Source: Natronohydrobacter sp. (GTDB taxonomy: Bacteria; Pseudomonadota; Alphaproteobacteria; Rhodobacterales; Rhodobacteraceae). Taken from it: a DNA stretch of 63,672 nt. The DNA is taken from NCBI GenBank assembly GCA_020832585.1, contig JAFIEL010000004.1, positions 1-63,672 of the forward strand. Reading direction: 5' to 3'. The notes beneath the pieces are model-generated. The model was not told the DNA's origin. It searched no databases and was given only the letters and a program-made list of their open reading frames with translations. Shown piece by piece: positions 34,001 through 54,100 of this stretch. Numbering within the stretch: the stretch's first letter is position 1; each line of letters begins with the position of its first letter. The position numbers and the translations under genes are program-made.

Positions 34001-34518
34001 ACATACAGCCGCCCCGGATAAATCGCCGCCAGCCGCTCCATCAGCGCGCGGGCTTTCGGCATCTGGTTGGTCTGGATCAGCTTGCCGACAGCCCCCTCCG
34101 CCCCACCCGACAGGCAGATCAGCCCCTCTGAATACTGTGCCAGTTCCTCGACCGTTACTTGCGGGACCGGGCGATCCCTGGGCAGATACAGGCAGGAATT
34201 GAGCGCCATCAGGTTCATGTAACCCGCCTCAGACTGCGCCAGCAGCACGACGGGCGCCGGCATCCGCAGCTTTTCACCCGGCGCTGGCGGGTCATAGGCC
34301 ACGGAAATCTGACAGCCCAGGATCGGTTGCACCCCGGCACCAGAGGCCAGCACTGAAAACTCCAGCGCCGCGAACATATTGTCAGTATCGGTGACAGCAA
34401 TCGCGGGCCAGCCCTTGGCGGCGCATGATTTCACGAGTTTTTTCAATGGGATAGCCCCTTCAAGCAGGGAATATTCCGTATGCGTGCGCAGATGGATGAA
34501 ACGAGGGATCTGGGTCAT
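31075..34518 (-). CDS. dnaE: DNA polymerase III alpha subunit
   Basis: This 1147-residue replicative polymerase has an N-terminal PHP domain (FIHLRTHTEYSLLEGA), then the polymerase palm with catalytic Asp pair in MPDFDIDFCMDRREEV and the third Asp in VKFDFLGLKTLT. Finger, HhH and OB-fold parts follow, ending at residue 1147, a normal length. The ATG at 34518 is chosen since the family begins there. No ribosome site is obvious, and TATGCT lies 6 bp before the ATG, so a leaderless start is possible. The bordering ABC transporter is divergent. Confidence 0.97.
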   Translation of the reverse strand: MTQIPRFIHLRTHTEYSLLEGAIPLKKLVKSCAAKGWPAIAVTDTDNMFAALEFSVLASGAGVQPILGCQISVAYDPPAPGEKLRMPAPVVLLAQSEAGYMNLMALNSCLYLPRDRPVPQVTVEELAQYSEGLICLSGGAEGAVGKLIQTNQMPKARALMERLAAIYPGRLYVELQRHAGAGGQMMEAERVTERAFVEMAYALDLPLVATNDAYFPDTAMYEAHDALLCIKEGSYVDQSAPRRRLTPQHYLKSPEEMATLFADLPEALENTVEIARRCAYKAEKRAPILPRFAEDEVEELRRQAREGLAARLAVIPHAAPVEEYEKRLEFELGIIEGMGFPGYFLIVADFIKWAKDNDIPVGPGRGSGAGSLVAYALTITDLDPLRYALLFERFLNPERVSMPDFDIDFCMDRREEVIRYTQDKYGHDKVGQIITFGALLSKAAVRDVGRVLQLPFGQVDKLSKMIPVEGVKPVSIEKALADEPRLREAAKSEEVVGRLLTHAQKVEGLLRNASTHAAGVVIGDRPLDQLVPLYRDPRSDMPATQFNMKWVEAAGLVKFDFLGLKTLTVIQNAVDLLKRRGVDLDISMIPLDDEATYKLYASARTVAVFQVESSGMMDALRRMKPTCIEDIVALVALYRPGPMENIPTYCEVKNGLKPLESIHPSIDHILEETQGIIVYQEQVMQIAQVMAGYSLGGADLLRRAMGKKIAEEMAKERPKFVDGAVANGVDKKKAGEVFDLLEKFANYGFNKSHAAAYAVVSYQTAWLKANYPVEFMAGVMNCDLHLTEKLAVYKREVDRMEITVIPPCVNRSRARFDVKDGALVYALGALKNVGVDAMRLIVDGRGETPFATLFDLARRVDLKRVGKRPLEMLARAGAFDQLDRNRKRVFESLDALVIYSAAIHEARASNQVSLFGEAGSDIPEPRLSQCDDWLPTERLTQEHQAIGFYLSGHPLDDYAGPLKRKQVMTLAEIERKAAGGPLVAKLAGAVSARQERKSARGNRFAFVQLSDPTGLYEVTVFSDTLEAGRQYLEPGQNVVLTVEATMEAETLKLLARGVQPIDSVVADAGAAGLRVHVETTDAIGSVASLLERYKEGPQRAKGPLWFCVTDPVLGQAYEIDTGRQIAVTPQIRGAVKSLGGVVMVEEL

Positions 34519-49078: not shown

Positions 49079-49674
49079 TCCTGTTGCCAGGGCGGGTTTT
49101 TGTGCATGACCGCCGCGAAACCGTCCGACGCCAGAAACTGCGTCAGCCAGTGCTGCACACGCGGCAAGGGCTGCGCATCGAACCTGCCCTTGTCGATGAA
49201 GGCGAACTGACGGACAAAGGGCAGGATAGCCATATCGGCAAGCGTAGGACGCGCGAAAATCCAGCCATCAAGCTGCGCTTCCAGATCATCAAGAAAGGCG
49301 CAGGCCGTGGCCAGATGCGCGGCCCGGTCCTGATCCGGATAGCGGCTGGCATATTTCACCCGGTCCAGCGCGTGTTTGAACGAACCATCACAGCGCGCGA
49401 TCCAGTCCATCCCTTCGGGCGGCATATCCAGCCAGCCCTCGGGGTCGTTCTGCCCCAAGGCCCAGGCCATGATATCCAGACTTTCGTCAATCACGCCGTC
49501 AGGCGTGACCAGACAGGGCACCGTCCAACTGGGCGAGGCTGCCAGAAACGCCGCCGGTTTCTCGCGCAGCAGGATTTCACGCAACTCGACCGACACGCCG
49601 CTGCACCGGATCGCCAACCGCGCGCGGATGGCGTAGGGGCAGCGGCGAAAGGACCACAGGACAGGTGCGCTCAC
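49054..49674 (-). CDS. Glutathione S-transferase-family protein
   Basis: This 206-residue protein has a thioredoxin-like N-terminal domain (VSAPVLWSFRRCPYAIRARL, with a Cys in the active-site turn) and an all-helical C-terminal domain. It starts with GTG at 49674, overlapping the ilvE stop by 4 bp (GTGA), and ends inside the convergent antiporter gene by 25 bp. It is probably co-expressed with ilvE. The physiological substrate is unknown. Confidence 0.85.
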   Translation of the reverse strand: MSAPVLWSFRRCPYAIRARLAIRCSGVSVELREILLREKPAAFLAASPSWTVPCLVTPDGVIDESLDIMAWALGQNDPEGWLDMPPEGMDWIARCDGSFKHALDRVKYASRYPDQDRAAHLATACAFLDDLEAQLDGWIFARPTLADMAILPFVRQFAFIDKGRFDAQPLPRVQHWLTQFLASDGFAAVMHKNPPWQQDQPVLSFP

Positions 49675-50540
49675 GCGCGCACCAAGGCCTCGTAGGTTTC
49701 GGACACTTTGCGCGTCATCTGGCCAACCTGGAAATGATACTCGCCAATCTGGCCCACAGGGGTCACTTCCGCCGCCGTCCCGGTCAGCCAGCATTCCGAG
49801 AAGCTTTCCAGCTCTTCGGGCATGATATGGCGCTCATGCACGACAATCCCCATGTCGCGCAGCATCGCAATAACCGTCTGGCGCGTGATCCCGTTCAGGA
49901 TCGCGTCAGGAATCGGCGTGTGCACTTCGCCATCCTTGACGAAAAACACATTCGCCCCAGTGGCTTCGGCCACATAGCCGCGATAATCCATGAACAGCGC
50001 GTCCGAACAGCCCTTTTCTTCCGCCGCATGCTTGGACATGGTGCAGATCATGTACAGCCCGGCAGCCTTGGCAGCCGTGGGGATGGTGTCGGGCGACGGG
50101 CGACGCCATTTCGCGATATCGAGCTTTGCACCCTGCCATTTCGCATCACCGTAATAGGCGCCCCATTCCCAGGCAGCGACCGCCAGCCGCACCGGATTGC
50201 GCCGGGCAGCGACACCCATATCTTCACCTGCCCCGCGCCATGCGACAGCGCGCACATAAGCGTCTGTCAGACCATTCGCGGCCAGAACCGCCGCCTTGGC
50301 CGCTTCGATCTGATCGACCGTATAGGGAATGGTCATGTCCAGCAGACGCCCTGATTCCAGCAAGCGCTCGGAATGTTCTCGGCTTTTGAAGATCTTGCCG
50401 GAATAGCAGCGCTCGCCCTCGAACACCGAAGACGCATAATGCAGCGCATGTGTCAGGATATGCACATTCGCATCCCGCCAGGGCACGAGCTTGCCATCCA
50501 TCCAGATTTGTCCGTCCCTGTCATCATACGCGCCGGCCAT
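49671..50540 (-). CDS. ilvE: Branched-chain amino acid aminotransferase
   Basis: This 289-residue PLP enzyme makes or breaks Val, Leu and Ile by amino transfer with glutamate. Motifs: HALHYASSVFEGERCY, YVRAVAWRGAGEDMGV, KAAGLYMICTMSKHAAEE (catalytic Lys region) and EATGANVFFVKDG. The ATG follows AGAGGAGG. It is divergent from petP-petR, an arrangement I recall from Rhodobacteraceae. Confidence 0.95.
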   Translation of the reverse strand: MAGAYDDRDGQIWMDGKLVPWRDANVHILTHALHYASSVFEGERCYSGKIFKSREHSERLLESGRLLDMTIPYTVDQIEAAKAAVLAANGLTDAYVRAVAWRGAGEDMGVAARRNPVRLAVAAWEWGAYYGDAKWQGAKLDIAKWRRPSPDTIPTAAKAAGLYMICTMSKHAAEEKGCSDALFMDYRGYVAEATGANVFFVKDGEVHTPIPDAILNGITRQTVIAMLRDMGIVVHERHIMPEELESFSECWLTGTAAEVTPVGQIGEYHFQVGQMTRKVSETYEALVRA

Positions 50541-50638
50541 GGTGCCTCCTCTAGACCAAGATTTTCAGATATTGCGCAAATTAGCCCCGAGTCAGACATA
50601 AAGTTACGCGATTTTGGGGAATCGCTACCAATTCGCAC

Positions 50639-50667
50639 TTGGAATGTCAACAAGGCTGACATAAAAT
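50639..50667 (+). promoter_or_regulatory. petP promoter with operator palindrome in its spacer
   Basis: TTGGAA (-35, 50639-50644), a 17-bp spacer and TAAAAT (-10, 50662-50667). The spacer is TGTCAACAAGGCTGACA, whose ends TGTCA/TGACA pair perfectly. A MarR-family dimer such as PetP would fit this site and block the promoter. Confidence 0.6.
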
Positions 50668-50693
50668 GCCAACAGAGGGGAAAGGACAAGCCC

Positions 50694-51203
50694 ATGGCCG
50701 ACGGACCATCCAACACCATCGGTGGCGAGAACCTGCTCTTCCTGACGGATGAGCAGTTGCGCAAGGGGATCGAGGCGATGTTCTTCGCCTATCGCGGTTT
50801 CACGGCTGACCCTGACCGCATCCTTGAAGAACATGGCTATGGCCGCGCCCATCACCGCGCCTTGCATTTCATCAACCGCACCTATGGCACGACCGTCAAC
50901 AACCTGCTTCTGGTTCTGGGCGTGACCAAGCAATCGCTCAACCGTGTGTTGCGCACCTTGATCGAGGATGGGCTTGTCGAAAGCCGTATCGGCAAGACCG
51001 ACCGCCGCGAGCGCAATCTCTATCTGACAGAAACCGGTGCCGCACTCGAACGCGCCTTGTCAGAGGCGCAGCGCGAACGCATGCGCGCCGCTTACCGTGC
51101 AGCAGGACCGCAGGCGGTCGCTGGCTTCCGGCAGGTACTGGAAGCGATGATGGATGACGAGATACGTCGCCAATACAACGCATTACGCGAGCGCCGGTCA
51201 TGA
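50694..51203 (+). CDS. petP: MarR-family regulator PetP
   Basis: This 169-residue protein has a MarR-type winged helix (residues about 60-130: NNLLLVLGVTKQSLNRVLRT, LVESRIGKTDRRERNLYLT). In Rhodobacter capsulatus petP precedes petR. The ATG at 50694 follows GAGGGG/AAAGGA. It overlaps petR by 4 bp (ATGA), so expression is coupled. An 17-bp palindrome in its own promoter suggests autoregulation. Confidence 0.88.
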   Translation: MADGPSNTIGGENLLFLTDEQLRKGIEAMFFAYRGFTADPDRILEEHGYGRAHHRALHFINRTYGTTVNNLLLVLGVTKQSLNRVLRTLIEDGLVESRIGKTDRRERNLYLTETGAALERALSEAQRERMRAAYRAAGPQAVAGFRQVLEAMMDDEIRRQYNALRERRS

Positions 51204-51919
51204 CGCCTGACGCGCCTGTGCATCTGCTGATCGTCGATGACGACACCCGCATCCGCACGCTGTTGCAGAAATACCTGTTGCGCAATGGCTATCTGGTCAC
51301 GGCGGCGCGCGATGCGGCGCATGCGCGACGTCTGCTGCAGGGGCTGAGCTTTGATCTGGTCGTGCTCGATGTGATGATGCCGGGCGAGGACGGGGTCAGC
51401 TTGACCCGCCATATTCGCGCGCAAGGCCCGATGCCCGTGCTGCTTCTGACCGCGCGGGGCGAGGCAGAGGACCGCATCACCGGGCTGGAAGCCGGGGCCG
51501 ATGACTACCTGCCCAAACCCTTCGAGCCGCGCGAATTGCTGTTGCGGATCAACGCGATCCTGCGCCGCAGCCCCCAGCCTGACCCGGTGGCGGTGCAAGT
51601 GAAAGTGCTGGTCCTTGGCCCGTTGCGCTATGATCTGGAACGCGGCGAATTGAAACGCGGCGATACCCCGGTGCGCCTGACCCAGACCGAAGCCGCGATC
51701 ATGCGGCTGTTTTGCCAGAATCCCGGCGAGGTGATCACCCGCGAGGCACTGGTCGAGCATCTCAGCCGCGACCGCGCATCGCATGGCGGCATGGTCGGGC
51801 AGGAACGCGCGGTGGATGTGCAGATCACCCGCCTGCGCCGCAAGATCGAGCACGACCCCAAGGCACCGCGCCACCTGCAGACCGTGCGCGGGGCGGGCTA
51901 TGTACTCGTTACGGATTGA
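51200..51919 (+). CDS. petR: OmpR-family response regulator PetR
   Basis: This 239-residue protein has a receiver domain (acidic pocket DDD at residues 13-15, phospho-acceptor Asp57 in LVVLDVMMP, Thr84, Lys106 in LPKPFEP) and an OmpR-type DNA-binding domain (residues about 135-235, with VQITRLRRKIE and VRGAGYVLVTD). In R. capsulatus PetR is needed for growth. No histidine kinase gene is adjacent, so its partner or phosphate source is unknown. A bidirectional terminator separates it from pnp. Confidence 0.92.
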   Translation: MTPDAPVHLLIVDDDTRIRTLLQKYLLRNGYLVTAARDAAHARRLLQGLSFDLVVLDVMMPGEDGVSLTRHIRAQGPMPVLLLTARGEAEDRITGLEAGADDYLPKPFEPRELLLRINAILRRSPQPDPVAVQVKVLVLGPLRYDLERGELKRGDTPVRLTQTEAAIMRLFCQNPGEVITREALVEHLSRDRASHGGMVGQERAVDVQITRLRRKIEHDPKAPRHLQTVRGAGYVLVTD

Positions 51920-51922
51920 AAA

Positions 51923-51946
51923 GGCCCCGGAGTCACCTCCGGGGCC
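51923..51946. terminator. Bidirectional terminator between petR and pnp
   Basis: GGCCCCGGAG-TCAC-CTCCGGGGCC is a perfect 10-bp stem. Rightward it is followed by GTCTTTTCT and leftward by TTTTC. Confidence 0.85.
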
Positions 51947-51970
51947 GTCTTTTCTGTCTGCGAGAGAGTC

Positions 51971-54100
51971 TTATTCCGACTTCTCTTCGACAATCTCTTC
52001 GCCGGTTTCCTGATTGACCATCTTCATGGCCAGACGGACCTTGCCGCGATCATCGAAGCCCAAGAGCTTGACCTTGACTTCCTGACCTTCCTTCAGCGCA
52101 TCCGACGGATGGTTCAGGCGACGACTTTCGATCTGGGACACATGCACCAGACCATCGCGCTTGCCGAAGAAGTTCACGAAAGCGCCGAAATCAACCAGCT
52201 TGACCACGCGACCGGTGTAGACCTTGCCCACTTCCGGCTCTGCCACGATCGAATAGATCATGTCATAGGCTTTCTGGATCGCGGCCTGATCGTTCGAGGC
52301 GATCTTGATTGTGCCATCGTCGTTGATATCGACCTTCGCGCCCGACACTTCGACGATTTCACGGATGACCTTGCCGCCGGTGCCGATCACTTCACGGATC
52401 TTGTCGGTCGGCACCTGCATCGTCTCGATCTTGGGCGCATACTGGCTGAAACCCTGCGGCGCGGTCAGTGCCTGTGCCATTTCGCCCATGATGTGCATGC
52501 GCGCGTCTTTTGCCTGCGCGAGCGCCTGCTCCATGATCTCGAAGGTGATGCCTGCGACCTTGATATCCATCTGCAGGCTGGTGATGCCGTCAGCAGTGCC
52601 CGCCACCTTGAAATCCATGTCGCCAAGGTGATCTTCGTCGCCAAGGATGTCGGTCAGGACAGCAAAACGGCCATCATCTTCCAGGATCAGACCCATCGCC
52701 ACACCGGCAACCGGGGCTTTCAGCGGAACGCCCGCATCCATCATCGACAAGGACGACCCGCAGACCGTCGCCATCGAGGAAGACCCGTTTGATTCCGTGA
52801 TCTCGGACACAACGCGGATGGTATAGGGGAAATCCGTCGCCGCAGGCAGCACGGCTTGCAGCGCGCGCCAAGCCAGTTTCCCGTGACCCACTTCACGGCG
52901 CCCCGGAGGTCCGAAGCGACCAACCTCGCCCACCGAATAGGGGGGGAAGTTGTAATGCAGCAGGAAGCTTTGCTTGCTGGTGCCGGTCAGCGCGTCGATG
53001 AACTGCTCGTCATCGCCGGTGCCCAGCGTGGTCACGCAAAGTGACTGCGTCTCACCACGGGTGAACAAGGACGACCCATGCGTGCGCGGCAGGATGCCGG
53101 TTTCGGCCACGATCTGACGCACCGTCTTTGTGTCGCGCCCGTCAACACGCGGCTCACCATTCACGACAGCACCACGCAGGATCGAGGCTTCCAGCTTCTT
53201 GATCGCCGAACCAAGGTTCTCGTTGGCCAGTTGCTCTTCGCTCAAGCTTGCCTTGATCGCATCGCGCGCCGCCGAAATCGCGCTCACACGCTCTTGCTTG
53301 TCGCGCAGCGCAAAAGCGGCACGCATCAACGGCTCACCTGCCGCTTTCACGGCTGCATAGAGGTCGGAATAATCCGGCGGCGTGAAATCAAACGGCTCTT
53401 TCGCAGCGTCTTCGGCCAGCGCGATAATCAGGTCGATCACCGGCTGATAGCTTTCATGCGCGAATTTCACCGCACCCAGCATCTCGGCCTCGGTCAGCTC
53501 ATAGGCTTCCGATTCCACCATCATCACGGCGTCCTTGGTGCCCGCGACGACCAGATCCAGCCGCTGCTCGGGGTTCTCGCGCAGCTTTTCCATGTCCTGA
53601 CATTCGGGGTTCAGGATATATTCACCGTTCGCGTAGCCCACGCGCGCCGCACCAATCGGCCCCATGAAGGGCACACCGGAAATCGTCAGCGCAGCAGAAG
53701 CCGCGATCAGGGCGACCACATCGGGCTCATTGACCAGATCGTGGCTCAGCACAGTGCAGATCACCAGCACTTCATTCTTGAAGCCATCCACGAAAAGCGG
53801 GCGGATCGGACGGTCAATCAGACGCGAGGTCAGCGTTTCCTTGTCGGAAGGGCGCGCTTCGCGCTTCAGAAAGCCACCCGGCACCTTACCTGCAGCATAA
53901 TATTTCTCGACATAATGCACGGTCAGCGGGAAGAAATCCTGCCCCGGCTTTGCGGCTTTGGCAAAGGTCACATTGGCCATGACGCTGGTTTCGCCCAGCG
54001 TGGCAATGACCGAGCCATCGGCCTGACGGGCAATCTTGCCCGTTTCCAGTGTCAGCGTCTCCTGCCCCCACTGGATGGATTTGGTAACGATATTGAACAT
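51971..54100 (-). CDS. pnp: Polynucleotide phosphorylase
   Basis: This 709-residue enzyme degrades RNA 3' to 5' with phosphate. It has two RNase PH-like domains, then KH (residues about 555-615, [12 protein letters not shown]) and S1 (about 620-690, [20 protein letters not shown]) RNA-binding domains. The ATG at 54100 gives the usual [12 protein letters not shown] start. rpsO, a common neighbour, is not seen in this window. Confidence 0.97.

Follow-up and report, generated by a model that had tools for sequence, protein, structure and literature searches.

A palindrome conserved at petP across Alphaproteobacteria as a probable autoregulatory operator

Results and discussion

A palindrome that fills the spacer of the petP-petR promoter is probably an ancient autoregulatory operator of petP, through which a PetP dimer would repress petP-petR and probably ilvE as well. 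Judged by comparison, the site is older than the Rhodobacterales promoter and sits on the petP start codon in other orders. In the proposed mechanism, a PetP homodimer would place one recognition helix on each GTCARY arm, the arm centres lying 9 bp apart, or about one turn of DNA, and bound PetP would bar RNA polymerase from the petP-petR promoter. The site fills the gap between the -35 and -10 boxes in Rhodobacterales and covers the start codon of a seemingly leaderless petP mRNA in most other families. The same dimer, on the left arm, should shut or tune ilvE, and a signal that releases PetP would be expected. We infer binding by PetP, repression as its sign, the leaderless start and the co-control of ilvE from sequence comparison, which supports autoregulation well, short of proof. 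An earlier sequence-only reading had proposed that PetP controls its own gene and petR; an operator at this place finds good support in its conservation, its tie to petP and its position at the promoter or start, with PetP as its putative binder.

The petP-petR promoter

The window, by which we mean the whole 63,672-nucleotide stretch of Natronohydrobacter sp. DNA analysed here, contains a MarR-family gene, an OmpR-type response regulator gene and a divergent aminotransferase gene (Table 1). We call the first two petP and petR, which we take to be their names in Rhodobacter capsulatus; profile libraries give only the MarR and OmpR-type family names. A protein similarity search detects petP in 61 of the 114 genomes of the class set and in all 61 genomes of the order set, and petR adjoins it at most petP loci.

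The palindrome occupies the promoter spacer exactly, as the sequence-only reading had noted; that observation is confirmed, and was understated. The two boxes and their spacer form the sole sigma-70-like site in positions 50200-52200 (mean 0.5, sd 0.8 in shuffled sequence). The exact pattern TGTCA-N7-TGACA occurs twice in the window, the second time at 34380 within a 546-aa ORF, and at nine places in the 3.3-Mb genome against one for the reversed control pattern. By itself the bare motif is weak evidence; its conservation is strong evidence.

Table 1. Features of the petP-ilvE region in the window
Feature	Position	Strand	Basis and remarks
-35 box of the petP-petR promoter, TTGGAA	50639..50644	+	sequence; conservation in Rhodobacterales
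Spacer palindrome TGTCAACAAGGCTGACA, 17 bp	50645..50661	.	sequence; conserved at petP loci
Conserved operator core GTCAAC-AAG-GCTGAC	50646-50660	.	part of the spacer TGTCAACAAGGCTGACA
-10 box of the petP-petR promoter, TAAAAT	50662..50667	+	sequence; conservation in Rhodobacterales
Probable -35 box of divergent ilvE, TTGACA	50645..50650	-	overlaps left arm; sequence, conserved arm; putative function
Probable extended -10 of ilvE, TGG-TAGCGA	50622..50630	-	17 bp from the -35; putative function
petP	50694..51203	+	MarR-family regulator, 169 aa; PF12802, 43 bits against a cut-off of 27
petR	51200..51919	+	OmpR-type response regulator; overlaps the petP end at 51200
ilvE-type branched-chain aminotransferase	49671..50540	-	PRK07544, 516 bits against a cut-off of 396; divergent from petP
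Predicted recognition helix of PetP	residues 79-91		predicted model

Conservation in Rhodobacterales

The spacer block is present at all 139 Rhodobacterales petP loci (127 distinct rows), which are the best PetP matches by protein similarity and over-represent near relatives. Among the distinct rows, the -35 bases TTGGA are found in 127, GTCA of the left arm in 126-127 and CTGAC of the right arm in 125-127. The -10 box keeps its first T and A in 127 rows and its last T in 125, the middle being variable, as it is in -10 boxes. The outermost bases of the palindrome vary (left T in 80 rows, A in 45 and C in 2; right A in 74, T in 30, G in 22 and C in 1), and the conserved palindrome is therefore GTCARY-N3-RYTGAC; of TGTCA-N7-TGACA as first described, the inner arms are kept and the outermost T and A are not. 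The inner AAYAA is kept as well and is asymmetric, as is the fixed left A, and this asymmetry counts against the proposed PetP operator. The overlong spacer of 19-20 bp that marks MerR-type activator sites is not seen in the aligned rows, whose spacer is 17 bp.

In 25 petP loci sampled evenly across the family and chosen by the palindrome itself, the TTG of the -35 box is kept at 22 and the -10 pattern at 23. The -35 box is changed at three of these 25 loci, which indicates that the palindrome can persist while the -35 changes.

Position over the start codon in most other families

For the other alphaproteobacterial families we took one petP locus from each of 60 genomes (59 from the class set and one further genome; petP identity 32-59%; three paralogs dropped), and searched a zone from 250 bp upstream of the aligned coding start to 24 bp within it. 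The strict motif GTCARY-N3-RYTGAC is found at 47 of these loci and in none of 1200 shuffles, and the loose motif GTCA-N7-TGAC at 49 loci and in 5 of 1200 shuffles. Conservation upstream of petP in relatives, by which the sequence-only reading had proposed to judge its operator, thus extends from 139 of 139 Rhodobacterales loci to 47 of 60 in other families, and these counts exclude the lack of conservation that would have spoken against it. The strict motif is absent from 13 loci, among which L207 and L219 carry the loose form; of the 11 loci without even GTCA-N7-TGAC, five carry a near-variant over the start codon (L195, L251, L260, L264 and L265), and no trace of the site was found in the searched zone at the other six.

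The central bases are ATG in 40 of the 49 loose-motif loci, usually in the form GTCAAY-ATG-RCTGAC, and in 39 of these 40 the ATG is in frame with petP and open into it. At ten loci no other ATG, GTG or TTG occurs from the upstream stop to where the alignment begins. The site ATG has a ribosome-binding-like stretch in front of it at 3 of 40 loci, compared with 52 of 109 Rhodobacterales starts that were assigned automatically and are perhaps wrong in some cases, and an AT-rich stretch immediately precedes the site. The rarity of the former and the position of the latter suggest that the petP mRNA is leaderless outside Rhodobacterales. The outer TA pairs are also kept in these families (44-45 and 42-47 of 49 loci), which extends the conserved unit there to the 21-bp palindrome TA-N-GTCARY-N3-RYTGAC-N-TA.

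The remaining nine of the 49 loci have central bases other than ATG and a start codon further downstream, and their arms are intact. The same is true of Rhodobacterales, where AAG replaces the central ATG and the site lies inside the core promoter; there the right arm and -10 box come from the bases that elsewhere open the coding sequence (GCTGACATAAA). L205 has degenerate tandem copies of the palindrome unit, the last of which contains the start codon, and this suggests one route by which start codon and site could have been decoupled. That the arms stay while their setting changes argues for a protein-binding site in DNA. An RNA element controlling petP translation from the start codon would fit the 40 of 49 loci at which the site spans the ATG, but the Rhodobacterales site is upstream of the -10 box and so would fall outside the mRNA, and an mRNA that begins at the ATG elsewhere would lack one arm; we give this explanation almost no credence.

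The left arm and divergent ilvE

The left arm reads TTGAC on the minus strand and probably doubles as the -35 box of divergent ilvE, a reading that the earlier description of the site had missed. An extended -10 of the form TGN-TANNNA stands at a fixed place, with its T and its A each in 124 of 127 Rhodobacterales rows and its TA in 36 of 49 loci of other families. In the window it has no T at -7, and promoters missing this T are reported to be the majority type in Alphaproteobacteria (PMC8407463, in excerpt). A PetP dimer would cover the ilvE -35, which may account for the near-constant GTCAA of the left arm. The exact site is seen only where an ilvE homologue is divergent from petP, so that synteny cannot separate PetP from ilvE as the cause of conservation. 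The site tracks the petP start codon, and its distance to ilvE varies.

Conservation of TTGGAA, TAWNNT and the minus-strand TTGAC could also be read as two overlapping core promoters, petP forward and ilvE backward, kept in place with no regulator at all. This reading is very improbable, as it leaves unexplained the invariant right arm CTGAC within the spacer, the presence of this palindrome over the start codon elsewhere in the class and the survival of the palindrome where the -35 has changed.

PetP as the candidate binder

The most economical reading is that PetP itself would bind the palindrome. Its predicted model (pLDDT 80) has helices and wing in the MarR order, and the best structural matches are MarR proteins, including DNA-bound MepR, MarR, MftR and HpaR (PDB); by these matches, the model and PF12802, PetP has a MarR winged-helix domain and a predicted MarR fold. 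By position, the operator overlaps the promoter or start of petP itself, as in MarR-type autoregulation. At least 95% of the 53 loci that carry the motif or a near form of it retain the helix TKQSL-x-RVL, and the petP paralogs L274, L276 and L283 have neither the site nor the usual helix. Four of the six no-site loci (L210, L221, L273 and L278) retain the TKQSL helix, so the covariation of helix and site is incomplete.

PetR, the product of the adjoining gene at most loci, is a highly unlikely binder: the conserved site is an inverted repeat and does not show the direct-repeat half-sites of OmpR-type regulators, and it is present at six loci with no petR found nearby (L201, L212, L218, L262, L263 and L275). 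The OmpR-type CenR of Rhodobacter sphaeroides, like the putative petP regulator an alphaproteobacterial protein with a conserved site near promoters, is described as binding the direct repeat TGA-N8-TGA at many targets (PMC9275681, in excerpt), whereas the inverted petP site is close to having one target.

Copy number and look-alike sites

Across the 114 genomes of the class set, the ATG form GTCAAYATGRYTGAC has 39 matches, in 38 genomes, against 3 control matches, and 37 of the 39 lie at petP. By genome, it is present in 37 of 61 with petP and in 1 of 53 without detected petP (Fisher p 2e-12); the two matches away from petP are in G259, between gltD and uppP, and in G268:C60. Within the family, GTCAAYAANRCTGAC is found in 132 of 149 genomes, mostly once (150 matches by manual table count; 9 control matches). 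This figure of 132 overstates the number of petP sites, since of 30 loci read 25 are at petP and five elsewhere: L129 and L154 encode VNKAD, L135 lies in an open frame, L128 precedes an aminotransferase gene, and the fifth is L151. The 15-mer GTCAACAAGGCTGAC encodes the VNKAD of GTPase-like proteins at L129 and L154 and, by eye, at L162, L173 and L183; such coding is a source of false matches in motif scans.

In the genome of the window, GTCARYNNNRYTGAC occurs at five places: at petP, between gltD and uppP (C120:3507), in long ORFs (C14 and C229:88294), and at C229:78829, inside a 109-aa ORF only and between longer genes. Relaxing the pattern to GTCAN7TGACNTA brings in C120:3433, C218 and three more places in or near genes. 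With five GTCARYNNNRYTGAC places, some in ORFs, a broad PetP regulon in this genome is not supported. A genome scan of the kind first proposed therefore recovers the petP-type site at petP, close to single-copy, and no wide regulon. The suggestion that the site is a model for other PetP targets is not borne out, given this copy number and a gltD-uppP look-alike in two genomes without detected petP.

In Rhodobacterales, a site with at least seven of eight arm bases lies 122-150 bp before uppP at all 30 gltD-uppP loci sampled from 56 uppP matches (raw counts). It is an exact GTCA-N7-TGAC at 15 of the 30, and a second such site follows 74-75 bp on at seven. The flanks are unlike those of the petP site, and the left arms are mostly GTCAGY. 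Sites like GTCA-N7-TGAC, mostly followed by CTA, are seen between divergent gltD and uppP at L287-L316, L161 and L285, and those of the genome of the window lie at G000:C120:3433-3524 (L122, L334 and L335). In a search of 28 genomes, 18 had gltD and 17 had its upstream sequence; at the same threshold the site is present in 7 of 11 genomes with petP and in 2 of 6 without (G243 and G259, 90 and 94% complete, absence of petP being no match at E 1e-20). PetP control of gltD-uppP is not claimed, as the sites are also present in these two genomes.

In five genomes GTCAAYAANRCTGAC is also found just upstream of a class I/II aminotransferase gene, whose neighbours differ from one genome to another (L156, L164, L165, L168 and L171). 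Homologues of this aminotransferase occur in 14 of the 61 order genomes, and the same regulator may lie behind these sites. At G000:C218:22849-22869 (L338, about 1501), TAGGTCAATATTTCTGACCTA stands at the start of what is by eye an indolepyruvate ferredoxin oxidoreductase-like gene, with a LysR-type gene adjacent.

The look-alikes bear on a further explanation, in which another regulator linked to amino-group metabolism (ilvE, gltD, aminotransferase) binds the site and petP is one target. The similar sites at gltD-uppP and before the aminotransferase in five genomes favour it, as do the gltD-uppP sites of two genomes without detected petP (G243 and G259) and the restriction of the exact site to loci with divergent ilvE. 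However, the petP form is near-single-copy, with 37 of 39 ATG-form matches at petP; the site follows the petP start codon rather than ilvE, whose distance varies; and the gltD-uppP sites differ in their flanks and mostly in their GTCAGY left arms. We consider such a regulator unlikely and retain PetP as the probable binder. A broader and rather unlikely proposal is that the 21-bp operator has tied petP-petR to amino-group metabolism since early Alphaproteobacteria, through ilvE and, via variants, gltD-uppP and the aminotransferase. It would have been at once repressor site, leaderless start codon and ilvE -35, and the old first petP codons would have become the -10 box in Rhodobacterales.

Relation to known systems

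The autorepressors MarR, MepR, HpaR and MftR (DNA-bound structures 5h3r, 4lll, 7el3 and 8ylg) have in common with PetP the MarR fold predicted for it, and the likeness extends to an inverted-repeat, pseudo-palindromic site whose arms are spaced by about one turn and which lies at the promoter of the regulator gene itself. The petP site differs in being class-wide, in lying on the start codon in most non-Rhodobacterales families and in sharing bases with the probable -35 of a divergent gene, and here repression is a putative role of PetP. LdtR of Liberibacter and Sinorhizobium, like PetP an alphaproteobacterial MarR-family protein, is reported to bind its own and the neighbouring promoter region; in the excerpted account it is described as an activator with other neighbours (ldtP), and the comparison rests on that description (PMC3999280). 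A literature search at the level of listings found no paper on a PetP operator or DNA site, and none of six forms of the site sequence was found in the papers searched.

The class-wide operator offers a ready probe for PetP binding and for its signal, and it predicts that petP mRNAs are leaderless and that ilvE is controlled along with petP. The petP case would be one in which an operator stays fixed while promoter and start codon shift around it.

We further note that the ilvE side holds another conserved block, CATAA-N2-TTRCGC-N-AA, at about 50597-50616 of the window and at the same position in relatives, where it is often preceded by a short mirrored TCCG...CGGA whose bases, by eye, change together.
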